In this document: positions 13,285 through 63,560 of the stretch, one piece after another | How positions within the stretch are numbered: position 1 is the stretch's first letter | How the letters are laid out: every line of letters starts with the position of its first letter | Source: Candidatus Thiodiazotropha sp. (ex Monitilora ramsayi) | GTDB lineage: Bacteria > Pseudomonadota > Gammaproteobacteria > Chromatiales > Chromatiaceae | DNA length: 64,000 bases | Assembly (NCBI GenBank): GCA_025655595.1 | Contig: JAHXIO010000005.1 | Location: forward strand, 310,001-374,000 | Direction: 5' to 3' | Program-made: the position numbers and the translations under genes | Notes under the pieces: model-generated | Seen by the model: only the letters and a program-made list of their open reading frames with translations | Told to the model about the DNA's origin: nothing | Databases searched by the model: none

Positions 13285-13998
13285 ATGTCTGATATGGTCA
13301 GGAATGAACGTTTCTTAACCTGGGGCGAGGCATGTCGCTATGTTGGGGATGAGCGCGTTCTCAACGAAACTGATGAGCTCTATTTTCAATACAACGGGTT
13401 CGCTTCCGTTGAGATGGGTGAAAAGTCTTACGATAGGGTACACGTCAATGGTTTTCTGCGTCTCTACCCTACCGATGTTAAGGACTTGAGAAACCATATG
13501 CCTGTGGGCTGCAACAGCGCTCTGGTCAATGGATTCATGGCAATCAACGGTAGTTTCACCAAGGATCTGTTGGAGAAGTTCATCGTTTTTGACGATGAAT
13601 TGACCATCGGTATAACGGGTGATGATTCACCGCATCATGATCTCGACTACCCTTCCAGTATCTACTTCCGTGAATCGGATCTTTTGAAAATCTGTGAACG
13701 CTTCGGCCTGAATCCAGCAGGTGCCGAGTCCGATTCGATCCCTCACTCACAGAAACTGGAGAGAGAAGAGGATCTGCTTCGTACGGTCGGAGCGCTCTCC
13801 TGTTTGCTGGCTAAGGAGCGGGGGGTTGATATCACCAATGAGTGGCACCACCTATCCGACTCTTTCATTGATGAGCTGTTCGATATCATGCGTGAAATGG
13901 GAATTTCCACCGAAGGTAAAAACAAGTTTGTCGTAGAACGGCTCATCTCCGAAGGTGTGAGGTTTGTTCATAATCGATCGATCGACGGGAAGATTTGA
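13285..13998 (+). CDS. Uncharacterised cytoplasmic protein
   Basis: A 237-residue protein I do not recognise. It has no signal peptide or membrane segment. The N-terminal third (FLTWGEACRYVGDERVLNE) looks helical. The middle part has a run DDSPHHDLDYPSSIYFRESDLLKICERFGL that suggests a compact alpha/beta domain. The C-terminal 80 residues are helical and charged. The ATG has an AGGG ribosome site 11 bases upstream, composition matches the neighbours, and no stop-prone stretch is seen, so it is very probably real. It is flanked by the serine dehydratase and the suf region without obvious operon linkage. Confidence 0.7.
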   Translation: MSDMVRNERFLTWGEACRYVGDERVLNETDELYFQYNGFASVEMGEKSYDRVHVNGFLRLYPTDVKDLRNHMPVGCNSALVNGFMAINGSFTKDLLEKFIVFDDELTIGITGDDSPHHDLDYPSSIYFRESDLLKICERFGLNPAGAESDSIPHSQKLEREEDLLRTVGALSCLLAKERGVDITNEWHHLSDSFIDELFDIMREMGISTEGKNKFVVERLISEGVRFVHNRSIDGKI

Positions 13999-52804: not shown

Positions 52805-53521
52805 TCAAGCTCCCAGGGTATCACGCTGAATCTTCACGATCTGATCGATACCCTGTCCCGCCAGATCGAGCATGGCATTGAGTTCGTCACGGCTATAGGC
52901 AGCCCCTTCGGCGGTACCCTGCACCTCGATGAAACCGCCCTGGTCGTTCATCACCACGTTCATGTCGGTTTCGGCGTTGGAGTCCTCGGCGTAGTCCAGA
53001 TCGAGTACCGGTGTGCCGTTGAAGACGCCCACCGAGACCGAGGCGACCATGCCGATCATGGGATCACTGTCCAGCAGTCCCAGCTCCTGCGTGTGCCTGA
53101 TGGCATCGGCCAGAGCCACACAGGCACCGGAGATGGAGGCGGTACGGGTACCACCGTCCGCCTGGATCACATCGCAGTCGAGGGTGATGGTGCGCTCGCC
53201 CAAAGCCTTCAGATCCACCGCCGCACGCAGTGAGCGGCCGATCAGGCGTTGGATCTCAAGGGTGCGCCCCCCCTGCTTGCCACGGGCCGCCTCACGCCCC
53301 ATGCGGTCGGTAGTGGAGCGGGGCAGCATGCCGTATTCCGCCGTGATCCAACCCTGTCCGGCGCCGTTGAGAAAACGGGGTACCCGCTCCTCCACCGTGG
53401 CGGTGCAGATCACCTGAGTGTCGCCAAAACAGACAAGCACCGAACCTTCGGCATGCTTGGTATATCGGCGGGTAATCTTAATTTGGCGCAGTTCGTCGGG
53501 TCGACGTCCGGATGGTCTCAT
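52805..53521 (-). CDS. rph: Ribonuclease PH
   Basis: A 238-residue phosphorolytic 3'-5' exoribonuclease that trims tRNA precursors and structured RNA ends. Conserved parts include [55 protein letters not shown] and [19 protein letters not shown] (metal aspartates). It heads the rph-rdgB pair. The frame beyond 53521 upstream is not part of the gene. Confidence 0.96.
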
Positions 53522-53836
53522 GGGGTAGCTCCTGGGTCGTTTGTAATATTTCGGGCCCGCTTCCTGCCGACCTCGATAGCTTTATGGGGGCCGTATTATG
53601 GGTGAATGTCGTGTCGATGTCAGCCATTGGGCGTGGTTGGTGCCTCTGATAGAGCGGTCGTAGACCCGCCGTGATAAGAAAGGACGCCAATGCCCATTGC
53701 CTTCGCCATATCGCCCATAAGACTTGCAATAAGTTCTGGCGGAGCATTAAAAAGCTTGCCGTTCGACGACAGGAGCTGCGAATACGAAAATAAAAGCCCT
53801 ATGCAACACACTTCACAATATATCAGTGAGGTTATC
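53522..53836. other. Intergenic region upstream of rph
   Basis: About 315 bases before the tandem repeat array. No recognised gene lies here; the rph promoter should be within it. Short frames on both strands (for example 53690-53935 plus) merge into the repeats. Confidence 0.4.
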
Positions 53837-54286
53837 AGCTCCCTGGTTGAAGCAAATAACATGAAGAGCGAAGCTATTTGCCTCGCAGGTGGAGCAAATA
53901 GCTTCGATAACGACAATAATAACAGCGGTTGTTGAGTAAAAAGCATCGTTAACTGAGCTATTAGCTTCATGAGAGGAGCAAAAAGCATCGTTAACGAAGT
54001 TAATAGCTTCGTTTATGAAGTAAAAAACCTCGTTCATGGAGTCAATTGCTTCGTTGACGGAGTCGAAACTATCGTTAGCGGAGCCAATCGCTTCGCTCGC
54101 GGAGCTAAAAGCATCGTTTACGGTGAAAATAGCATCGATCATGACAAAAATAACAGGGTCAATGATATTAAATGCATCGATGACGAAGGTGAATGCTTCG
54201 TGCTTGACGACAAAAGCAGGGATGTCGAAGGAAACCGATGCGATAGCGGGCTTGTCCTCTTCTCTAACATGCGGCATGCCGTCCAT
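53813..54286 (-). CDS. Possible heptad-repeat protein encoded by the 21-bp array
   Basis: The minus strand is open for 157 codons from ATG 54286. Translation is a chain of seven-residue units close to [FI]-x-[SF]-[VA]-N-[DE]-A, for example INFVNDA and FDSVNEA, which could form an amphipathic helix or coiled coil. The plus strand has two in-frame stops in the same register, so the minus strand is the more likely coding strand. Against this, there is no good ribosome site and no domain outside the repeats. It might be a small repeat protein or a decayed fragment. Confidence 0.35.
   Translation of the reverse strand: MDGMPHVREEDKPAIASVSFDIPAFVVKHEAFTFVIDAFNIIDPVIFVMIDAIFTVNDAFSSASEAIGSANDSFDSVNEAIDSMNEVFYFINEAINFVNDAFCSSHEANSSVNDAFYSTTAVIIVVIEAICSTCEANSFALHVICFNQGADNLTDIL
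53837..54235. repeat. Degenerate 21-bp tandem repeat array (19 units)
   Basis: Nineteen consecutive 21-base units keep exact register with no insertions or deletions. A typical unit is AGC-ATC-GTT-AAC-GAA-GTT-AAT, and the first three bases are most often AGC or TGC. Units carry internal symmetry (CTTCGTTNNCGAAG-like), so both strands give similar motifs. Neighbouring units alternate between TTC and ATC forms on the plus strand, hinting at a 42-base higher-order unit. Sequence divergence is high while length is constant. Confidence 0.85.
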
Positions 54287-54848
54287 CAAGCAAACTCAGA
54301 TATCTCGTGTCTCAGAGATAATCGCCCCACCGGAATGGAACGCAGGTGTGGTTGAGAAAAGCCCCAGGCCTCTACTACACAGAAAAAAAGAGGGGGGCTG
54401 CACAAACCTTTTGAGCGAGTCACCGAAAACCGAAATCCCTGACATTTACCAAAGCCAGCGGCGAAAAAAGCGGTACCTACCCATACCGAGTAGGAGTATG
54501 TGAGTAGTTGTACCGGCGGGCAGCCAGGTCCACTGCATTCATACGTTCTGACCAATCAACAGTCGGGTTCCAACATGATAGGAACAAGCCAATAGGATCG
54601 GATAAGCGGTATTCCACTTGCAGGGTGGTGTAGGAAAATGCCTACAGACAACCATTATTCGATATGTCATCTTTGTTTGAGAGGGGGATTAATCCTCATC
54701 TAATCAAAAGCATGTGGCGATAAATCATGACAGGTGCTGGATCATGGGGGGTGGCGGATTGCAGTCATGCTGAGAACATATTTGCAATATATCGCAATAT
54801 CAGTGTGCGCTATATATTCCAATATCACTGCGTGCAAGATAATACGCT
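54287..54848. other. Non-coding stretch leading into the cassette array
   Basis: About 560 bases with no convincing gene and no integrase fragment I can recognise. Near the right end two related AT-rich segments (CAATATCAGTG and CAATATCACTG) are repeated 31 bases apart, directly before a GTTAGGG core. Confidence 0.4.
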
Positions 54849-54861
54849 GTTAGGGGTTTAA

Positions 54862-55332
54862 GTGAATACCATCGATAAATGGGCCGAGCGCGTTTACTCC
54901 GAAACTGATTTCGGTCGCAGTGTCGCGACCTCAGTAGCGGGCGTTATTGGGCTCGCCGTGTATCTGGTATTCGGTGATTGGGTCATAGCTGCCTTCGCCT
55001 CAATCATTACTTTCCCAATCGTCCGTCTAATCGCTGCCGGGTTTCACGAAAAGGCTACCCGACATGCGAAACGCCGTATCGAGCGCGAGGAAGCGGAACA
55101 GATTTACGATAGATTGAGTAAGGGAGAGAAGGAAGTGGTTCAGGCATTCGTCAAGGCGGGTGGCACCGCCCTCACTTGGTCACAGGTCAATAGTCTATCA
55201 TTGCCTGCGCCCGCCGTTGAGTCACTAATTCAAAGGGAGATTTTGTGGACCTCTATGACAGCAGATGGAATGCGAGAAACCTTTGCCCTTGATTCCGCGG
55301 TATTTGATGTTGGTCAGGACAAGGCTGAATAA
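54862..55332 (+). CDS. Membrane protein, possibly SieB-like (cassette 1)
   Basis: A 156-residue protein starting at GTG, seven bases after the GTTAGGG core. A hydrophobic region at ~22-60 forms two membrane helices, followed by a charged helix (KATRHAKRRIEREEAEQIYDRLS) and a C-terminal domain (KGEKEVVQAFVKAGGTALTWSQVNSLSLPAPAVESLI) that looks like a small winged helix. The order (two helices, LSxxEK..V..F, short wing domain) recalls the superinfection-exclusion SieB family, but I see this only as a general resemblance. Unknown function; phage exclusion is a guess. Confidence 0.6.
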   Translation: MNTIDKWAERVYSETDFGRSVATSVAGVIGLAVYLVFGDWVIAAFASIITFPIVRLIAAGFHEKATRHAKRRIEREEAEQIYDRLSKGEKEVVQAFVKAGGTALTWSQVNSLSLPAPAVESLIQREILWTSMTADGMRETFALDSAVFDVGQDKAE

Positions 55333-55341
55333 CATGGATGC

Positions 55342-55407
55342 CCCTAACCAATCGCTCAAGCCTGGACCGCGCAAACAGCGCGCGGCCAATTAGCTCAGCC
55401 GTTAGGT
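55342..55407 (+). repeat. attC site 1
   Basis: Starts with inverse core CCCTAAC and ends with core GTTAGGT (55401-55407), which pair. The centre CTGGACCGCGC-AAACA-GCGCGCGGCC forms an imperfect stem. It lies between the stop of cassette 1 and the start of cassette 2, nine bases downstream of the stop. Confidence 0.75.
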
Positions 55408-55416
55408 GTAAATGGA

Positions 55417-55866
55417 ATGAGAAAAATATCAGGATCGACATTCTATTTTAAGAAACTATTTCCAGCGTTGTGGTTCGGATTCTTAGCAGTATTATTTGTT
55501 ACATCGTTCTCTTCTGGTGCGGAAGACGAATCGATCATGTTCTTAGCTATGCCCATATTATTGGCCGTTTTCGGTTATGTGCTATTCAAGAAAATGGTGT
55601 GGGATTTGGCTGATGAAGTATACGATCATGGAGATATGCTTGAATTTCGTAAGAGTGGAAAAACTCAACGCGTTAATCTAAAAGATATTATCAATATTGA
55701 TTATACTCACATGAGCTCTCCAGAAAGAGTCGTAGTCCATACTAAGAAAGAAGGGGAAATTGGTAACGAACTACCATTCAGCCTCCCAATGCGTTTCAAT
55801 CCCTTTGTTAAAAACCCGCTGGTTCGAGAGCTAATAGAGCGAGTAGATGATGCAAAAAACACCTAA
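55417..55866 (+). CDS. Membrane protein with PH-like C-terminal domain (cassette 2)
   Basis: A 149-residue protein with two membrane helices (LFPALWFGFLAVLFVTSF and IMFLAMPILLAVFGYVLF) and a C-terminal beta-rich part (ADEVYDHGDMLEFRKSGKTQRVNLKDIINIDYTHM) like the bacterial PH-like domains found in small membrane proteins. The stop codon TAA is part of the inverse core of the next attC (ACCTAAC), as is common in cassettes. Function unknown. Confidence 0.75.
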   Translation: MRKISGSTFYFKKLFPALWFGFLAVLFVTSFSSGAEDESIMFLAMPILLAVFGYVLFKKMVWDLADEVYDHGDMLEFRKSGKTQRVNLKDIINIDYTHMSSPERVVVHTKKEGEIGNELPFSLPMRFNPFVKNPLVRELIERVDDAKNT

Positions 55867-55946
55867 CAACTGCATCAAAATCGCCCTAAAAGGCGCGGGC
55901 TGGGACCGCGTAAACAGCGCGCGGCCCTTTATGCAAACCGTTATGT
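55861..55946 (+). repeat. attC site 2
   Basis: Inverse core ACCTAAC at the left end fits RYYYAAC exactly, and GTTATGT at 55940-55946 is the core. TGCAT and ATGCA pair further in. Its centre (CTGGGACCGCGTAAACAGCG) is nearly the same as in attC 1. Confidence 0.75.
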
Positions 55947-55962
55947 TTGAAAGGAGAATTCA

Positions 55963-57063
55963 TTGAAAGGTCAATGGATAGGTAAATATATAGGAGACCA
56001 TAAAGGTGAAATCATCATTAATATTGATGAGTTATCTAATAATTATGGTGGCGTCGCATATCTAATTCCTGAAGATCGAAAGATACCTACAGTTGCAGGT
56101 TTATTTAATACTTTAGATAAATCTAATAATTTCACTTTAAAAACCTACGTCATAATGCCTATTAATCCGCAAACAGGAGTTGCAATTAACTGGAAACAAA
56201 TTAGAAGCGCATATCCTGGCTATGAAATACCATTAGAAGCTATTGGAAACGGAGAATTTACAGAAACCAAACTAACACTAGAGATTAATACTAGTCTGAA
56301 AAGTAAATTCGAATGCTCATTAAAAAAGAAGAAAAGCAACTTTAAATCCACACTAAAAAGTGAAGCAAAAACATGGGAAGAATATAAAGAAATTGTATCT
56401 AAATATACAGAGAACAGTTTTATTTATAGAGGCCAAAGAAAAACGTGGCGACTAAGAACAGCTTTTCACCGTCATGGCCGCTACGATTTAACACGCTTCC
56501 TAACTTTAGATATTCCAACATTACATAAAAATCTTAGTGCAAAGACCAAACATATATTTAATTTAGAAATTCCTAGTGAAAATGGAGCATTTTTTAATTT
56601 AGTCCAACATCACGGATACCCAACTCCACTACTTGACTGGACTCATTCACCTTATGTGGCTGCATTTTTTGCTTTTCACAAATTACCTAAAGAAACAACT
56701 TCTAAAGATGGTAGAGTGAGAATTCTAATATTTGATAAAGAGCTCTGGGAAAACCATTGGAAACAATTACAAGTATTAAATACAGCTGGACTACATCTTT
56801 CTATTAACGAGTTTTTAGCAATAGAAAACGACAGGCTAGTTCCTCAACAAGCAGTAACTACTATTACTAATATTGACGATATTGAAAGCTATATACAAAA
56901 TAAAGAAAAAATAAGAAAATGCCAATACTTACGAGCTATTGATATAGATGCAACGGAAAGAAACAAAGTACTTAAAGAATTAGCACATATGGGTATTACA
57001 GCGGGTTCACTTTTTCCAGGTTTAGATGGTGCATGTAGCGAACTAAGAGAAAAACATTTTTAA
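55963..57063 (+). CDS. FRG-domain protein (cassette 3)
   Basis: A 366-residue protein on very AT-rich DNA, clearly foreign to the neighbours. The start is a TTG at 55963, supported by AAGGAG six bases upstream. An FRG domain spans about residues 130-260: it begins FIYRGQRKTWRLRTAFHR and carries LVQHHGYPTPLLDWTHSPYVAAFF, the family hallmark (RGQ, QHxGxPTPLLDWT). The N-terminal 120 residues are a separate beta-rich region (GQWIGKYIGDHKGEIIINIDE). FRG domains occur in many mobile or defence-like contexts, but their chemistry is unproven. No signal peptide. Confidence 0.85.
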   Translation: MKGQWIGKYIGDHKGEIIINIDELSNNYGGVAYLIPEDRKIPTVAGLFNTLDKSNNFTLKTYVIMPINPQTGVAINWKQIRSAYPGYEIPLEAIGNGEFTETKLTLEINTSLKSKFECSLKKKKSNFKSTLKSEAKTWEEYKEIVSKYTENSFIYRGQRKTWRLRTAFHRHGRYDLTRFLTLDIPTLHKNLSAKTKHIFNLEIPSENGAFFNLVQHHGYPTPLLDWTHSPYVAAFFAFHKLPKETTSKDGRVRILIFDKELWENHWKQLQVLNTAGLHLSINEFLAIENDRLVPQQAVTTITNIDDIESYIQNKEKIRKCQYLRAIDIDATERNKVLKELAHMGITAGSLFPGLDGACSELREKHF

Positions 57064-57066
57064 AAA

Positions 57067-57131
57067 ATAACAAATCGTTCGGGAGGGGCCAAGCAAAAAG
57101 CGTGTTTGGTCCCTCAACTCAAACGTTAGCC
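57067..57131 (+). repeat. attC site 3
   Basis: Begins near ATAACAAATCG, ends with GTTAGCC (57125-57131), and folds through GAGGGGCCAA / TTGGTCCCTC with unpaired bases, the usual attC shape. It starts three bases after the stop of the FRG gene and ends 18 bases before the next ATG. Confidence 0.7.
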
Positions 57132-57148
57132 AACAAGCAGGAGAGAAA

Positions 57149-57667
57149 ATGGGGATTTCGATAAACCCTGCCGCTTTTCTTGATTTCTTAGTAAAAAGAA
57201 AATTTGAGAATAAAAGGAAGGCTGCTGAGTATCTGGAAACAATTACAGAAGATGCCGAGCATTTAGTAGGAGTCTGGAGGAACATTGTTGACCAGCTATG
57301 TTCTGGCAAGCAGTCATGCCAATTGAGTCCAGAACAGCTTCTCAAAATCGAAGAACACTCATACGATAACGCGCCCTATTACTCAAGATTAATGGAATTT
57401 TACAGGTATTTATCGGTTGCGCTTGATGGAAAAGTGGAAGAAAGATGGCGGGAAGACTTAATATCTACCATATCCAGTTTGATAAGACATCGTGAAATTA
57501 CCACCAAAGACTACGAAAAAGCAGTAAAAGAAATCCAAAGAGACTCTGTCTTTATTGATGAAGACAATAACATGTCCAATTTGAGTTCCTTGATAGAGTC
57601 TGTGGCAGTTCTAGAAAAAGAGGTGGCGTCTTTGCGCGTACTAGTGGCTACAATCAAGGCGCTATAA
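57149..57667 (+). CDS. Uncharacterised helical protein (cassette 4)
   Basis: A 172-residue cytoplasmic protein, almost wholly helical, with a C-terminal coiled coil (SSLIESVAVLEKEVASLRVLVATIKAL). The middle part has conserved-looking aromatic/charged helices (YYSRLMEFYRYLSVALDGKVEERWREDL). I do not recognise the family. GGAGAG seven bases before the ATG is a good ribosome site. Confidence 0.75.
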   Translation: MGISINPAAFLDFLVKRKFENKRKAAEYLETITEDAEHLVGVWRNIVDQLCSGKQSCQLSPEQLLKIEEHSYDNAPYYSRLMEFYRYLSVALDGKVEERWREDLISTISSLIRHREITTKDYEKAVKEIQRDSVFIDEDNNMSNLSSLIESVAVLEKEVASLRVLVATIKAL

Positions 57668-57677
57668 TAATTAGTAA

Positions 57678-57737
57678 AAAAGGGGTCGGTGACAAATGAT
57701 AATCTTTTGTGTTATTTATCTGTCACCGACCCCTTTT
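57678..57737. repeat. Perfect 17-bp inverted repeat with 26-base loop
   Basis: AAAAGGGGTCGGTGACA and its complement TGTCACCGACCCCTTTT frame an AT-rich loop. The right arm ends in TTTTGTTG, so it could terminate transcription from cassette 4. The arm sequence resembles a dispersed palindrome seen in other gammaproteobacteria. It sits before the weak attC site 4. Confidence 0.7.
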
Positions 57738-57779
57738 GTTGTAACGAGACAAAGGGTCTCGTTAATGTGATTGTTATGC
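57738..57779 (+). repeat. Candidate attC site 4 (weak)
   Basis: TTGTAAC at the left, a short stem (AACGAGA / TCTCGTT), and GTTATGC (57773-57779) as right core. It is shorter than usual attC sites. Position before the next ATG supports it. Confidence 0.45.
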
Positions 57780-57800
57780 ACCTTATAAAACGAGAGTATC

Positions 57801-58208
57801 ATGGAAGTGTCGATAAATGTTATTGATTCAGTATCAGAAGATGAAGTAATCGGTATATATAAGGCAAATGATTGGTCATCTGCTGATAAGCCTAAGGAGT
57901 TATTGGCTGCACTGAATCAATCTCATACTTTAGTCACCGCTCGAATTGCAGGAAAGCTCGTCGGTCTGGGTAACGCAATATCAGATGGCCACTTGGTTGT
58001 CTACTATCCGCATATGCTCGTTCATCCGGATTATCAAGGCATGGGTATAGGTCGTAAAATGATGGAGGCTATGCAATCTATTTATGGCGGTTTCCATCAA
58101 CAGATGCTTACTGCTGATGGAGAGGTGGTTGGTTTTTATAAGGCATTAGGTTTTGAGCGCGCAGGAAAAACAGAACCAATGTGGATTTATTCGGGCAAGG
58201 AGCATTAG
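57801..58208 (+). CDS. GNAT acetyltransferase (cassette 5)
   Basis: A 135-residue N-acetyltransferase. Acetyl-CoA motif A is MLVHPDYQGMGIGRKMMEAM, with Q/RxxGxG/A intact (YQGMGIG), and motif B holds VVGFYKALGFERAGKTEPMWIY. Single GNAT domain, cytoplasmic, substrate unknown. GNAT genes are frequent in integron cassettes. AT-rich relative to the core genes around the array. Confidence 0.85.
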   Translation: MEVSINVIDSVSEDEVIGIYKANDWSSADKPKELLAALNQSHTLVTARIAGKLVGLGNAISDGHLVVYYPHMLVHPDYQGMGIGRKMMEAMQSIYGGFHQQMLTADGEVVGFYKALGFERAGKTEPMWIYSGKEH

Positions 58209-58216
58209 ATCAAATA

Positions 58217-58268
58217 TCGACTTTCAGGGTGGACTCGGGTCTCTCACCAGTAAAGTCGGACATTAAGT
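58217..58268 (+). repeat. Candidate attC site 5 (degenerate)
   Basis: CGACTTT and AAAGTCG form an outer stem, with GGTG/CACC pairing inside. The right end ATTAAGT (58262-58268) resembles a core with G to A at the first base. The following bases, GTAAG, echo the GTAAA after attC 1. Confidence 0.4.
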
Positions 58269-58274
58269 GTAAGT

Positions 58275-58694
58275 ATGAAAAAAGCATACAAAGTGCGTAT
58301 AGGTCTTGATGAATTAGTCGTGCCGGTGGGTGAGCTCGATAGTGTTCAGCTTTGTGTGGATTGCGGAAGAGACGGGGGAGTGCCACAAATTACTATCGGT
58401 GGTTACAATTCTATTCAAAGCGATAGGAGTATGGAAACCAAGATATGGCTGATTAAAGAATTGGAAGTTGGAGATTCATTCAACTTTGAGTTTACCGAAT
58501 CAGAAGAATTTACACCGCCAGAAAAGGAAGAAGTGGAGGGGCCTTTTGAAGAAAGGTGCAATTTTTGTGGTAAATCAAAAAAGAATGTGGATGTGCTTCT
58601 GGAGGGGAGTGCATATATTGCGGTATATATTTGTAATTCGTGCGTTACGGATTGCAGTAAAAAAATAATTGCAGAGAGAGCGAATCGCTCTTAA
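58275..58694 (+). CDS. Protein with ClpX-type C4 zinc finger (cassette 6)
   Basis: A 139-residue protein. Residues ~93-130 form a ClpX-like C4 zinc finger: RCNFCGKSKKNVDVLLEGSAYIAVYICNSCVTDC has the CxxC-x(n)-CxxC layout with FCGKS and a YIC..C pattern as in ClpX. The first 90 residues form a separate unknown domain, with a second cysteine pair (LCVDCGRDGG). No AAA+ motor is present. It might act as a substrate or adaptor-like piece in protein binding; that is inference. Confidence 0.75.
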   Translation: MKKAYKVRIGLDELVVPVGELDSVQLCVDCGRDGGVPQITIGGYNSIQSDRSMETKIWLIKELEVGDSFNFEFTESEEFTPPEKEEVEGPFEERCNFCGKSKKNVDVLLEGSAYIAVYICNSCVTDCSKKIIAERANRS

Positions 58695-58712
58695 CAAGAG
58701 AAGCAAATCCAA

Positions 58713-59159
58713 ATGAACCTGAAATGGCATATAAGAGAAGCCGTCCCTGAGGATGCCGATAATCTAAAGAAGTGCATGGAGTCTGCGTATCTTACATACC
58801 AAGAGCGAATGGGTGGAGTGCGTCTTCCGCCGATGGATGTAGACTACTTATCCGAGATCATTAACTATCCTGTCTGGGTTGTCGATTCAAAAGGAGATAT
58901 CCTTGGTGGGTTAATCATGTCGTTTGAGAATGAGCAAGCCTCAATAGCAAATATTGCTGTTGATCCGAAGTGCCAGGGACAAGGTATTGGCGGCGCCATG
59001 ATGGGGTTTGCAGAATCAAGGGCAAGAGAAAACAATTTCTCTGAATTGCATCTCACTACCCACGTATTGCTTCATGAGAACTTATCGTTTTATCAACACC
59101 TGGGATGGCAAGAGACAGGTAGAGATGAGACCAAAGTCTTTATGAAGAAAGAAATATGA
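58713..59159 (+). CDS. GNAT acetyltransferase (cassette region)
   Basis: A 148-residue N-acetyltransferase beginning MNLKWHIREAVPEDADNLKKCMESAY. Motif A is IAVDPKCQGQGIGGAMMGFAESRARENN with the QGQGIG loop, and motif B is FYQHLGWQETGRDE. It begins 18 bases after the preceding gene with no attC-like site between them, so they may share one cassette. Confidence 0.85.
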   Translation: MNLKWHIREAVPEDADNLKKCMESAYLTYQERMGGVRLPPMDVDYLSEIINYPVWVVDSKGDILGGLIMSFENEQASIANIAVDPKCQGQGIGGAMMGFAESRARENNFSELHLTTHVLLHENLSFYQHLGWQETGRDETKVFMKKEI

Positions 59160-59250
59160 GACGCTCAAAAAGAAATTACCATGGATCGACTGACAAGCGC
59201 ATGCTGCCGGACTAAAGTGCCTGCTGATGCAGCGTGATAGACTCATAAAG

Positions 59251-59607
59251 ATGGTTATATGTCATAAATATTTAGCATTAGGAATTGTCATGTCATTATT
59301 ATCGGCATGCAATCATGATGATCCGTCTCAGCCTTACATTAAAGTGTATAAATATGAAGGTTCTATCCAGTGTGACAACGCAGGAGTAGAGCTGGATACG
59401 ATGGCGTTAGAGTTAATAAATATCGGAATAGATGTTGTATGTTCTCAGAAGGGGCATGATGGGATGGTACGGGCTACAGTATGTGGTGGAGATACTGGAA
59501 ATGTCAATATCTTTAAGATAAATAGAGTGAATTTTCCTGATGCCGAATCTATTGGTTTTGAGTCTGTGAGCACTCTTGGTGAATATCAAGATCAAAAGTG
59601 TGAATAG
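59251..59607 (+). CDS. Small lipoprotein (cassette region)
   Basis: A protein of about 118 residues with a lipoprotein signal (YLALGIVMSLLSACNH, lipobox LSAC). The mature part has three further cysteines and looks beta-rich (YKYEGSIQCDNAGVELDTMALELINIGIDVVCSQ). The start at 59251 is chosen for the signal; ATG 59227 is open too, and neither has a strong ribosome site. AT-rich. Unknown function. Confidence 0.65.
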   Translation: MVICHKYLALGIVMSLLSACNHDDPSQPYIKVYKYEGSIQCDNAGVELDTMALELINIGIDVVCSQKGHDGMVRATVCGGDTGNVNIFKINRVNFPDAESIGFESVSTLGEYQDQKCE

Positions 59608-59766
59608 CCAAACAAAGATATAAATATTTACTTACTATTGCTCGTTGGACGCTCGACTTGAAATGACTGGATTTATGTTTAGGTTGTCAATGGATTATTC
59701 ATGGGTGGGTATGAGATTATCGTCAGTATTTTTTAGACTGTGTTCTAGTTTGTTTTCAATAAAACT

Positions 59767-60075
59767 ATGAGTTTCATGTGCCCTGTTTGTGGGGGTTCGA
59801 TTGCGAAATGGCTGACAAATGACGAGCATTTTGAATGCCCGAACTGTAATTTGCCGTTAACCTCAAATAGAAAAAAGACGCTAAAGCAGAGTTTCGCAGT
59901 GGCGCTGATGGTCTGGCTTCTGGTCTTAATCGGTGTGCAGTACTACAGTGGTTCTTGGGGTTACGCAGCCGTGGTTTCCATTGAAGCAGGCGGTATACTG
60001 GCTGCTATGTTCGCAGTGCTCTATTATCGCCTTGTTATCAAGATCTATAGAGCAAACAGAACAACCGCTAAATAA
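59767..60075 (+). CDS. Zinc-ribbon membrane protein (cassette region)
   Basis: A 102-residue protein with an N-terminal zinc ribbon (FMCPVCGGSIAKWLTNDEHFECPNCNLPL, two CPxC pairs) and two membrane helices (VALMVWLLVLIGVQYYSG and AAVVSIEAGGILAAMFAVLYY), ending basic. Similar small proteins are common and unassigned. Separated from neighbours by 160-200 bases without clear attC sites. Confidence 0.7.
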   Translation: MSFMCPVCGGSIAKWLTNDEHFECPNCNLPLTSNRKKTLKQSFAVALMVWLLVLIGVQYYSGSWGYAAVVSIEAGGILAAMFAVLYYRLVIKIYRANRTTAK

Positions 60076-60281
60076 GTTGAAGATACAAAAGTGTTTGCGA
60101 ACAAACAAATACAGGGTGACCAAAAGAGATGGAGGAGGTAGGAGAGGACTGTTTGGGCTGGTTGCAAAATGCTGTAAGAGACTATCTTGAATATGCTTGA
60201 AAACGTCCTCTGATAAGTAATATTGTCGCCTGTTTTGCGCGACAAAAAGCAGAGTTATCTGCATAGTAATTCAGCAATGAA

Positions 60282-61172
60282 ATGAGAAAAATACTTGAAT
60301 TGGCGGAATCGCTGACAGCTACGCGTAGTAACCAGAACGGTAAAGCGCCCGTTCAGCATCTTGGTTTCATATCATGTGGAAATCGGGTTCATATTCGACA
60401 CGTACCGTTCTATGAGCCTTGTATCATCATGGTTCTATCGGGTCGAAAATTAGTTTTCGATGAACAAAGACCCATCACCTGTGAGGCAGGCAACATAATT
60501 ACAGTGCCAGCGCCCTCTAGCTACGATCTGCGCAATGAGCCAGATGGGCTGCGGAATCGATATAGGGCATTAGTGATTCCGTTTAAACACAAGCATCTTG
60601 AACATCTGCGCGATATGCATGGCATTAGCCATGAGGAGCATCATAATCAAATAAAAGTGCTTAAATATGAGTCAGACGAGATACTGCTCGCAACCGTGCA
60701 GCATTACCTTGAGTGTCCGGATGATGCCCGAATCCTGAAACATAGATTAACTGAAATTTTACTCATATTAATGGAACAGGATAATCGATTAATGTCCTAC
60801 GCTATCGCCGGGGATAGCTGGAGCCTGCGTGTTCGTTCAATTTTATCTGGTGATCTTGTCCACGAATGGAAGATCGGAGAAGTCAGCGAACGTCTTGCAA
60901 CAAGCGAAACCACGTTGCGACGCAAGCTCCGTGAAGAGGACGCCAGTTTTAGGGAGATATTGTTTGAACTGCGTCTTGCAAGTGGTTTGATGCAGTTATT
61001 ACAAACCTCCATGCCAGTGTACCAGGTTGCTTTCGATTGTGGTTATCAGTCAGTCTCTCGTTTCACGAGTAATTTTCGTAAGCGTTTCGGGCTATCCCCC
61101 ACCGAGTTGCGTGGCTCAGTGGGCGAAAAGGGACAGAAATTGCCCGCTTTCGAACAACCCGAGACTTCTTAG
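60282..61172 (+). CDS. AraC-family transcriptional regulator
   Basis: A 296-residue regulator. The N-terminal half is a cupin-type effector domain (HLGFISCGNRVHIRHVPFYEPCIIMVLSGRK), and the C-terminal 100 residues hold the two helix-turn-helix units: WKIGEVSERLATSETTLRRKLREEDASF and PVYQVAFDCGYQSVSRFTSNFRKRFGLSPTELR. The FDCGYQSVSRF.. motif is diagnostic. It may control the next gene, only 52 bases downstream on the same strand. Its ligand is unknown. Confidence 0.9.
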   Translation: MRKILELAESLTATRSNQNGKAPVQHLGFISCGNRVHIRHVPFYEPCIIMVLSGRKLVFDEQRPITCEAGNIITVPAPSSYDLRNEPDGLRNRYRALVIPFKHKHLEHLRDMHGISHEEHHNQIKVLKYESDEILLATVQHYLECPDDARILKHRLTEILLILMEQDNRLMSYAIAGDSWSLRVRSILSGDLVHEWKIGEVSERLATSETTLRRKLREEDASFREILFELRLASGLMQLLQTSMPVYQVAFDCGYQSVSRFTSNFRKRFGLSPTELRGSVGEKGQKLPAFEQPETS

Positions 61173-61224
61173 TCCTTCATCATGTCTCCGTCATCCTGAC
61201 AAATACAAACTAATGGAGACTACG

Positions 61225-61776
61225 ATGAATAAACTTGGATTATTAACGCTGATATATCTATCTTCAACGGCAATGGTATCTGCTAGCGAATTCTTGGTTA
61301 CGAGTCCGCAGATAAAGGCAGGGGATAACATTGTCAACGAGCAGGTGTTCAACGGCTTTGGCTGTCAGGGAGGTAATATCTCACCGTCGTTACACTGGAA
61401 AAACCCACCGACCGGAACGAAAAGCTTTGCCGTTACTGTCTACGATCCAGACGCACCAACAGGTAGTGGGTGGTGGCATTGGGTCGCCTTTAATATACCG
61501 GCGGATGTTAGAAGCCTACCTGAGGGTGCGGGAAGCTCTGAAAACAAGCGTATGCCGATGGGTAGTATTCAGAGCCGAACCGATTTCGGTAAGCCAGGTT
61601 ACGGTGGCCCGTGTCCACCTGCGGGCGATGAGGCTCATCGCTACAAATTCACAGTGTACGCGCTCAAGACGGATCAGCTTCCATTGGATGAAAGCGCCCC
61701 GGCAGCGATGGTGGGTTTTTACTTGCACCAGAACATGTTAGAAAAAGCCGTGTTAGAGGCTAAATACGGGCGCTAA
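61225..61776 (+). CDS. YbhB/YbcL-family PEBP-like exported protein
   Basis: A 183-residue protein with a signal peptide (LGLLTLIYLSSTAMVSASE) and a phosphatidylethanolamine-binding/Raf kinase inhibitor-like fold. Conserved parts are FGCQGGNISPSLHWKNPPTGTKSFAVTVYDPDAP, the ligand-site segment GWWHWVAFNIP, and GYGGPCPPAGDEAHRY. The bacterial function is not known. ATG 61225 is fixed by GGAG six bases upstream; the open frame continues to 61027 inside the AraC gene. Probably co-transcribed with the AraC regulator. Confidence 0.88.
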   Translation: MNKLGLLTLIYLSSTAMVSASEFLVTSPQIKAGDNIVNEQVFNGFGCQGGNISPSLHWKNPPTGTKSFAVTVYDPDAPTGSGWWHWVAFNIPADVRSLPEGAGSSENKRMPMGSIQSRTDFGKPGYGGPCPPAGDEAHRYKFTVYALKTDQLPLDESAPAAMVGFYLHQNMLEKAVLEAKYGR

Positions 61777-61798
61777 GTCGCGGCAGTTGTAATAGTTT

Positions 61799-61864
61799 GG
61801 ATAACAAGGCCTTCCAGAAGAGACAGTCGCTAATGCGCCTGCCCCTCTGGAGGCAATGTTATCA
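61799..61864 (+). repeat. Candidate distal attC site 6
   Basis: GGATAAC at the left and GTTATCA at the right (61858-61864) pair as GATAACA/TGTTATC. The inner stem GCCTTCCAGAAGAG / CCTCTGGAGGC has unpaired bases like an attC. It overlaps the last codon of the convergent HerA-like gene, so it may instead be a shared terminator structure. Confidence 0.5.
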
Positions 61865-63343
61865 CTTGCCGCCAATTATCGACCCAAGAATACCGCGTAC
61901 AATCTGCCTTCCCAATCTGGAGCCGATGGCCCTGGCCACCGATTTGACAAAGGCCTCCCCAACGCCTTGACGACGTGATCCGCCCCGGCTGCCGCTACTA
62001 CGTTTCGACTCTTTCTCCGCGGCCTCTGCTTTCGCCTGCGCTTCACGGCGTTTGATCAACTCCTCCTCGCGTTTTTTCAGCAGTTCGTAAGCCGACTCCC
62101 GGTCGACTTCCTGATCGTAGGTTGTGCGTAGCGGTGAGCGGTCGATAATCCGCTTTCTCTCCTTTTCGTCCACTGGGCCGAATTGGGATCTCGGAGGCGA
62201 CATCAGTGTCCGCTCGACCATGCTTGGCACGCCTTTTTCGTCCAGGGTGGAGATCAGTGCCTCGCCAACGCCCAGGTTGCCGATCACATCGACAGTGTCG
62301 AAGGCGGGATTGGGTCGGAAAGTTTCAGCGGCAGCCTTGACGCTTTTTTTGTCTTTTGGAGTGAAGGCCCGGAGGGCGTGCTGGATACGGTTGCCGAGCT
62401 GACCGATAACCTCGTCGGGTACGTCGTTGGGATATTGGGTGATGAAAAAGACGCCGACGCCTTTAGAGCGGATCAGACGGACTACCTGGGTGATTTTTTC
62501 CAGCAGGGCCTTGGGTGCTTTACTGAAAAGGAGATGTGCCTCGTCAAAGAAGAAGACCAGCTTGGGCAGGTCGGCATCTCCCCTTTCCGGTAACTCTTCC
62601 ATTAATTCAGAGAGTAGCCACAGGAGGAAAGTGGCATAGATCCGAGGTGAGTGGTAGAGGGTAGTTGCGTCGAGAAGACCGATTACACCCCGGCCGGAGA
62701 AGTCGGTCTGCATCAGGTGCTCAATGCGGATAGCAGGTTCGCCGAAGAAGACTTCGCCACCGGCCTCTTCGAGAACCAGCAGCCTGCGAAGAATTGCCGT
62801 GACGCTCTGCTTGGAGACTCTGCCGTACTCCCGTTCAAGATCCTTGGCATTGTCCGCCACCCAGTTGAGCATGGCGCGCAAGTCTTTAAGATCAAGCAGC
62901 AGCAGGCCTTCGTCATCGGCCAAGCTGAAAGCAATCTGTAACACGCCCTCTTGGGTTTCGTTAAGCTCCAACAGGTTGGCCAGCAGAGTGGGCCCCATCT
63001 CGGAGACAGTGGTGCGTACCGAATGGCCTTTTTCTCCAAAGACATCCCAGAACAGCACCGGCGAGGGTTCGAAGCTGTGATCTCCTATCTGGATGTATTC
63101 GAGCCGTTCCGTGATCTTGGGGTGGGCCTTGCCGCTACCGGCAAGGCCCGAGAGATCGCCTTTGACATCGGCAGTGAAGACCGGCACGCCAAGGCGGGAG
63201 AAGGACTCGGCCAGTACCTGCAGGGTCACCGTCTTGCCGGTACCGGTGGCGCCGGTGATCAGTCCATGGCGGTTGGCCATACCGGCGTTGAGCCTGATCT
63301 GCTTTTCGCCGTTGCCGCCAAGCAGGATCTGGTTGTCTGTCAT
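61862..63343 (-). CDS. HerA-like ATPase, DUF853 family (YjgR)
   Basis: A protein of about 493 residues related to the HerA/FtsK ATPases. Walker A is [17 protein letters not shown], Walker [17 protein letters not shown], and an Arg-containing segment [22 protein letters not shown] follows; the C-terminus is a Lys/Glu-rich helix then a Gly/Ser region. It matches the E. coli YjgR type, whose role is not known. The Met at 63343 is chosen because GGGGAGAG lies just upstream; the frame extends to 63388. It is convergent with the cassette array. Confidence 0.9.
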
Positions 63344-63560
63344 CTCGCTCTCCCCTAAAGCCCCGGTGTGGTCAGGGCTAATTGACAATGGTTTACGTTT
63401 TACACTGGTGCTGATCGTTCCGTGGGTTAGACTCAGCCTTGTTATATCGAGTTAACGGAGAGCGCTCACTATCGGCTGATGGTTACGCCTGTGCAGGGTC
63501 TGCATGCCGTTAACCGCCAGGCGCGAGCCGTGGGATCCGCAACACAACGAGGGTTTTAAC

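Follow-up and report, generated by a model that had tools for sequence, protein, structure and literature searches.

Integrons are described as a single platform that comprises an integrase gene (intI), an attachment site (attI) and a cassette array. The relevant passages of PMC12444791 and PMC8618304 define clusters of attC lacking integron-integrase (CALINs), and those of PMC12444791 report that Xanthomonas has arrays at ilvD, in addition to CALINs at seven further loci. Here we analyze a cassette array in Candidatus Thiodiazotropha sp. (ex Monitilora ramsayi), contained in a stretch of 64,000 nucleotides (contig JAHXIO010000005.1, positions 310,001 to 374,000) that is referred to as the window and corresponds to G000:C1:310001-374000, where G000 is the genome (4.68 Mb, 46 contigs). 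A sequence-only reading had classified positions 54849-61864 as a CALIN of mostly unknown genes. We found that the array carries an attI and attC sites and no intI, that integrase-less attI sites are dispersed over the genome, and that the content of the array is species specific from the attI crossover on. The array is likely a ("satellite") integron that lacks an integrase, possesses an attI of its own and is loaded in trans by integrases encoded elsewhere.

An attI site heads the array

A hidden Markov model (HMM) of attI, based on eight sites adjoining intI genes of the genus, had its sole window match at 54773-54853 (Table 1). The 83 bases preceding the first cassette resemble the intI-linked attI sites of the genus, and the identity of this attI is near certain. 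The crossover is located between G54849 and TT54850-54851. The limits initially assigned to the array were thus apt: they run from the G of the crossover, 54849, to the last base of the final attC, 61864. The CALIN classification stood, at least for the left part, with respect to the attC sites, the cassette-like genes and the lack of a nearby intI, but was incomplete given the attI at the head.

The attI is preceded by a head that lies where intI would otherwise start; at the intI gene on contig C14 this start lies ~123 bp before the crossover. Its segment 54628-54730 (103 bp) is 78.6% identical to the same locus of the relative G014. As G014, too, has this head where intI would begin, their ancestor probably already lacked intI. 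Many satellites of G000, G014 and G015 have in common a unit that begins with the motif TGTAGG-N6-CYTACAGACA, ~225 bp ahead of the end of attI. With at most one mismatch, the head pattern was detected 9 times in G000, 11 times in G014, 6 times in G015 and never in G006, G009 or G001, and the reversed control gave 0-1 matches. A sequence-only attI model built from seven intI-linked attI sites (R3) found an attI within ~140 bp downstream of 22 of the 26 patterns (8/9 in G000, 10/11 in G014, 4/6 in G015). We take the head palindrome to resemble a response-regulator box, and the ~225-bp head probably carries a promoter for the first cassettes. Upstream regions of other satellites (L177, L180, L186, L189; L numbers denote loci retrieved from the genomes analyzed) match one another in many registers, as degenerate repeats would.

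attC sites of the array

A strict attC consensus scan returned no sites and a loose scan mainly noise; covariance models were used instead. The first model (R1, 11 sites) detected only 55861 (E 0.04) and 61799 (E 0.14) in the window. The second (R2) was seeded with 35 attC sites from arrays of relatives, none from G000; 35 of 36 candidate sites were kept (L046:2006-2083 was left out), seven were reoriented by bulged-base position and intI direction, and L052:1437 was reoriented at the alignment stage. Other R1 matches (short 48-base sites, a duplicate and weak ones) were left out of R2.

In the 64-kb window, R2 returned three matches with E<1, all of them in the array and in one orientation (bottom strand, for a + strand array); the fourth and final listed match, at 13390, lies outside the array (E 2.8). 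Among the three hairpins that the sequence-only reading had singled out, those at 55342 and 55861 were supported by R2, whereas that at 57067 was weaker and was listed only by a filters-off search covering 53.5-62.5 kb (9 kb). When the best 150 of 1293 candidates were scored in a whole-genome R2 search, 61799 was the only window site among them (E 0.3). The Rfam search of the array gave no attC and no other RNA match. Folding z-scores of four attC bottom strands were -2.1, -1.5, -1.8 and -5.7, which is modest for three of them. Taken singly, the attC sites are therefore weak; the case lies in their clustering, common orientation and context.

The proposed RYYYAAC and GTTRRRY ends did not match in every letter at all sites (CCCTAAC at 55342, GTTATGT at 55940). 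As had been noted, a stop codon lies in an inverse core: the open reading frame (ORF) 55417-55866 ends with TAA inside ACCTAAC at 55861-55867. R2 found two close attC sites, at 55342 and 55861, and a CALIN is called from at least two. Under the 4-kb clustering rule for attC, 61799, 5.9 kb further on, would stand alone. Between 57.7 and 61.8 kb the attC sites are decayed, interrupted by a hairpin resembling repetitive extragenic palindromic (REP) elements, or absent; therefore, some of the genes there are not intact cassettes. The segment 57742-57793 matches the integron locus L040 of G003 with 84.6% identity. Related copies of the hairpin at 57679-57737, inside the degraded attC 4, are present in L212, L208, L187 and L060.

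The same locus in related genomes

We compared the locus among 22 genomes of the genus, G000 included. Both flanking genes were on one contig in 19 genomes; the gap between them was 159-884 bp in 17 of these, which contained neither attI (HMM) nor attC (E<=5) in the gap, 8.3 kb in G000 and 4.8 kb in G014. The G015 locus was split over two contigs. Among the other sequences searched with the attI HMM, the same locus of G014 had one match (E 1.5e-13) and the remaining 19 sequences, the 17 short sites included, had none. G014 is thus the one relative with the same flanks and an attI but wholly different cassettes, and the G015 attI lies outside the assembled parts. At the protein level (tblastx, E<=1e-3), the window array shared nothing with the G014 array or the assembled G015 array, and homology of the flank to both resumed at 61859. 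The sequence-only reading had named identical gene order without cassette turnover as a refutation; this was not found, as the array content differs completely from that of G014 at the same place and 17 of 19 genomes have no array there. Between G014 and G015, the distal 1.85 kb were common (92%), whereas the proximal 1.95 kb had nothing in common, a polarity that insertion at attI would be expected to produce.

One of the G015 contigs of this locus opens with the terminal part of an IS110-type element, behind which a cassette begins. Elements that by eye resemble IS110/IS1111 are located exactly at the attI crossover in three places, namely, G000:C1:156838, G015:C31 and, beside intI, G015:C18; it is the right end of such an element that opens the G015 contig.

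attI sites without intI across genomes

The R3 model was run over the 22 genus genomes; only the best-scoring candidates of whole-genome searches were examined, so that the counts are lower bounds. At E<=0.01, all 22 genomes contained a match, with 17 in G000, 21 in G014 and 12 in G015. At E<=1e-5 there were 106 matches, comprising 10 linked to an intI (<=3 kb), 95 unlinked (no TIGR02249 match at E<=1e-60 within 3 kb) and 1 undecidable at a contig start. G000 contained 1 linked and 15 unlinked attI sites, and attC sites were detected within 5 kb at 13 of the 15. The window array is thus one of at least 15 satellite platforms in this genome. Unlinked sites were also present in two genomes that are complete on one contig, G006 (3 unlinked, 0 linked) and G009 (4 unlinked, 1 linked); therefore, assembly fragmentation is not the cause. 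In the family set of 116 genomes, attI matches (E<=1e-6) were found in 19, of which 15 lie outside the genus, and the complete genome G127 had three attI matches and no integrase over the cut-off.

All 85 attC matches near an attI (E<=0.1) were located downstream in the expected orientation, 65/65 in a first set and 20/20 in a second. For the first set only rows at E<=0.1 (90/115) were counted, 25 of which were on loci without an attI match, leaving 65. Above E 0.1, a few matches departed from this pattern in side or strand (L198:86, L214:2020, L216:7253 minus). attC sites were attached to attI at 27 of 36 loci of the first set and 9 of 12 of the second.

Fragments of intI were detected by tblastn beside attI, at the expected place, at 8 of 53 loci (L200, L214, L215, L305, L307, L309, L312, L314), none of them in G000; L192 of G000 contains an intI fragment without an attI match. 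As these relics in relatives indicate, some intI-less attI sites come from full integrons whose intI decayed. An all-against-all comparison of the ORFs upstream of satellites, aimed at a mobile gene common to them, found no gene that most satellites have, intI and orthologous host genes excepted. No right-end repeat was seen at the three loci inspected.

Integron integrases and signs of exchange

G000 encodes two full-length integron integrases over the TIGR02249 cut-off, on C14 (462 amino acids) and C2 (464 amino acids). Both contigs differ from that of the window, which agrees with the earlier statement that the 64 kb encode no IntI-type recombinase and answers the suggestion to look for a distant intI. 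Their reading frames are open over the full length and the conserved residues are aligned, so that both are predicted to be functional. The best named relative of the C14 enzyme is from Ca. T. endoloripes (71% identity), by which the genus of G000 is probably Candidatus Thiodiazotropha, whose members are sulfur-oxidizing symbionts of clams. A single-protein search of genomic contigs returned no relative; an alignment-based search did. Integron integrases of ~460 amino acids with an N-terminal extension of ~130-140 residues (L001, L002, L217-L255) occur in many gammaproteobacterial and some deltaproteobacterial genomes.

Several orthologous pairs of satellites were compared. In L185/L206 and L188/L208, identity of 86-88% extended over ~1.2 kb up to the crossover and was lost there, and homology was regained in the right flank in L188/L208 and L177/L201. 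L187/L212 and L186/L205 were less clean, as homology stopped before attI. The L202/L211 comparison was cut by a contig end; their flanks are 95-96% identical, whereas the attI block is 74% identical and of a different subtype, from which attI modules appear to be replaced as units. The loci L178 and L183 (G000:C4 and C9) have ~900 bp upstream of attI in common (91% and 76%), which is evidence that a satellite was duplicated together with its flank.

In G014, one sequence that is 100% identical over 36-89 nt directly follows the crossover at four places, all of them contig ends, which adjoin a short-type intI (C9), an extended intI (C1) and integrase-less attI sites (C5, C7). Both intI contigs of G000 end in the same 91-bp piece. 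Together with relatives of a cassette-encoded GNAT acetyltransferase at other loci (81% nucleotide identity of cassette 5 to a gene in an attI-headed G007 array, 72% to one in G015), these stretches may be signs of recent activity in trans.

Genes of the array and its flanks

The eleven array genes are all on the + strand and include an AraC-PEBP pair. Their guanine-plus-cytosine (GC) content of 0.32-0.52, compared with 0.52 for the window, bears out the described changes between genes. The left flanking gene, judged from its sequence, is presumably rph (RNase PH), and the right flanking ATPase is presumably DUF853-like.

Table 1. Coordinates of the array, its recombination sites and its surroundings (window positions unless a locus is named)
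Feature	Position	Strand	Evidence
Left flanking host gene	52805-53521	-	ORF; match in 21/22 genus genomes
Degenerate 21/42-bp tandem repeats, upstream of head	53935-54137	.	Tandem Repeats Finder, 70% matches
Satellite head, palindrome TGTAGG-N6-CCTACA and following sequence	54628-54770	+	G014 homology, common start in satellites, motif search
attI	54771-54853	+	nhmmer 54773-54853, E 1.3e-10; R3 E 2.6e-10 for genome
Cassette 1 gene, SieB-like membrane protein	54862-55332	+	Pfam SieB E 3.6e-6, 27.1 bits vs cut-off 26
attC 1	55342-55407	+	R2 25.0 bits, E 1.6e-4
Cassette 2 gene, no Pfam match	55417-55866	+	Stop codon within inverse core of attC 2
attC 2	55861-55946	+	R2 22.3 bits, E 9e-4; absent from the filters-off listing
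Cassette 3 gene, FRG-domain protein, candidate phage defence	55963-57063	+	Pfam FRG E 5.8e-19; PADLOC PDC-S15 E 1e-42
attC 3, weak	57067-57131	+	R2, filters off, as 57068-57128: 9.8 bits, E 0.42
Cassette 4 gene, no Pfam match	57149-57667	+	ORF
Hairpin like REP or miniature inverted-repeat transposable elements (57679-57737), then 3' part of attC 4 (core GTTATGC)	57679-57779	+	Sequence, hairpin copies elsewhere
Cassette 5 gene, GNAT acetyltransferase	57801-58208	+	Pfam
attC 5, decayed (putative)	58204-58270	+	Fold z -3.2; no R2 match
Gene with ClpX-type zinc finger, no attC behind	58275-58694	+	Pfam E 1.3e-9
Second GNAT gene	58713-59159	+	Pfam E 8.8e-14
Small gene, lipoprotein-like by eye, no Pfam match	59227-59607	+	ORF
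Small gene, zinc-ribbon-like membrane protein	59767-60075	+	Pfam matches weak, below cut-off
AraC-family regulator gene	60282-61172	+	Pfam HTH_18 E 4.8e-18
PEBP-family gene	61225-61776	+	Pfam PBP E 4.4e-44
Last attC	61799-61864	+	R2 19.9 bits, E 0.004; fold z -5.7; core overlaps stop codon of next host gene
Right flanking host gene, ATPase	61862-63388	-	Match in 20/22 genus genomes
Loci with IS110/IS1111-like element	L186:1914-3300 (G000:C1), L211, L037, start of L108		Family by eye

How the array may have been filled

In the favored reading, that of a satellite integron, the C14 and C2 integrases would insert cassettes at the window attI in trans, and the same enzymes would excise them at attC sites, also in trans. 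Several observations weigh against this reading. The window attI has more identical positions in common with the attI next to the G014 intI (69/85) than with that next to the C14 intI (54/85), and therefore another enzyme than the present G000 IntI may suit it best. The window array seems partly decayed, and five or so genes at 57.8-61.8 kb without a recognizable attC are a sign of this; no attC was detected by R2 at 12 of 48 attI loci, some of them because contigs end. Since attI subtypes differ at orthologous places, the attI sites themselves were exchanged by some route, and the identical stretches in G014 are short. A sigma-70 promoter scan gave 20 sites versus 17.4 expected, which is no excess, and none on the + strand of the head. 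The differences between species may also stem from differential loss out of an ancestral array that was larger.

Among the alternatives, the array might be the remnant of a complete integron that has been frozen or in decay ever since it lost its intI, the species differences being older or due to random loss. Decay of intI does occur, as the eight loci with intI fragments beside attI indicate, and several window attC sites are decayed. Nevertheless, tblastn searches revealed no intI relic in the window region (53522-54870, best E 5.9) or beside any G000 attI, the head in the intI place is common with G014 although all cassettes differ, and G014 and G015 share the distal part only; we regard this history as unlikely. 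Exchange of satellite content by homologous recombination or gene conversion instead of IntI appears less likely still: long upstream homology exists within the genome for some satellites (L178/L183), and the subtypes of L202/L211 differ between nearly identical flanks, but in the clearest pairs divergence sets in at the attI crossover, and most arrays at different loci show no relationship to one another. A plain CALIN that arose when cassettes were inserted off target at a site other than attI (attG), a route to CALINs given in PMC12444791, would fit the last attC that abuts a host stop codon. This explanation is highly improbable and was dropped once the attI was found, as the left edge is an attI (E 1.3e-10) with paralogues at 15 unlinked places.

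The satellite integron therefore remains our preferred reading. A broader proposal, which we advance tentatively and rate at slightly less than an even chance, is that of a distributed integron, in which one or two integrases serve more than 12 attI platforms that are dispersed along the chromosome and can each take their own cassettes, a regulatory head common to the platforms of this clade replaced intI, and attI and head multiply independently of intI.

Relation to known systems

If many intI-less attI sites remain usable, one integrase would run many expression sites at once, and the loss of intI would no longer mean the death of an array. Tools that call only intI and attC would classify these loci as CALINs and overlook the platform. 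The old question of whether CALINs are dead remnants or working stores is thereby made testable, and the window locus, which exists in empty, G000, G014 and G015 states, lends itself to such a test. In the open-access literature, we found no description of many attI sites without intI in one genome; subscription papers were outside the search.

The window array resembles CALINs, which excerpts of the published work describe as mobilizable in trans by IntI, in its attC-bearing cassettes and the lack of a nearby intI, and differs from them in having an attI with a conserved head and in being one of many such platforms per genome. As in sedentary chromosomal integrons, the array is chromosomal, attI headed and composed mostly of unknown genes, and G000 also has two attI-bearing integrons with intI. 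Of the features of a complete integron, the window locus thus has the attI at the head and the cassettes in one direction but no intI, and the number of platforms per genome is a further difference. In Xanthomonas, too, several integrase-less arrays per genus occupy conserved places and intI was lost in some, whereas the passages concerned mention no attI for the CALINs outside ilvD (PMC12444791). Delta-attI-type gene cassettes, according to part of PMC12901181, likewise have an attI away from its intI that is a functional recombination site; there, however, the attI is located within single cassettes of mobile integrons, at the cassette end, whereas in the window a whole attI heads an array.

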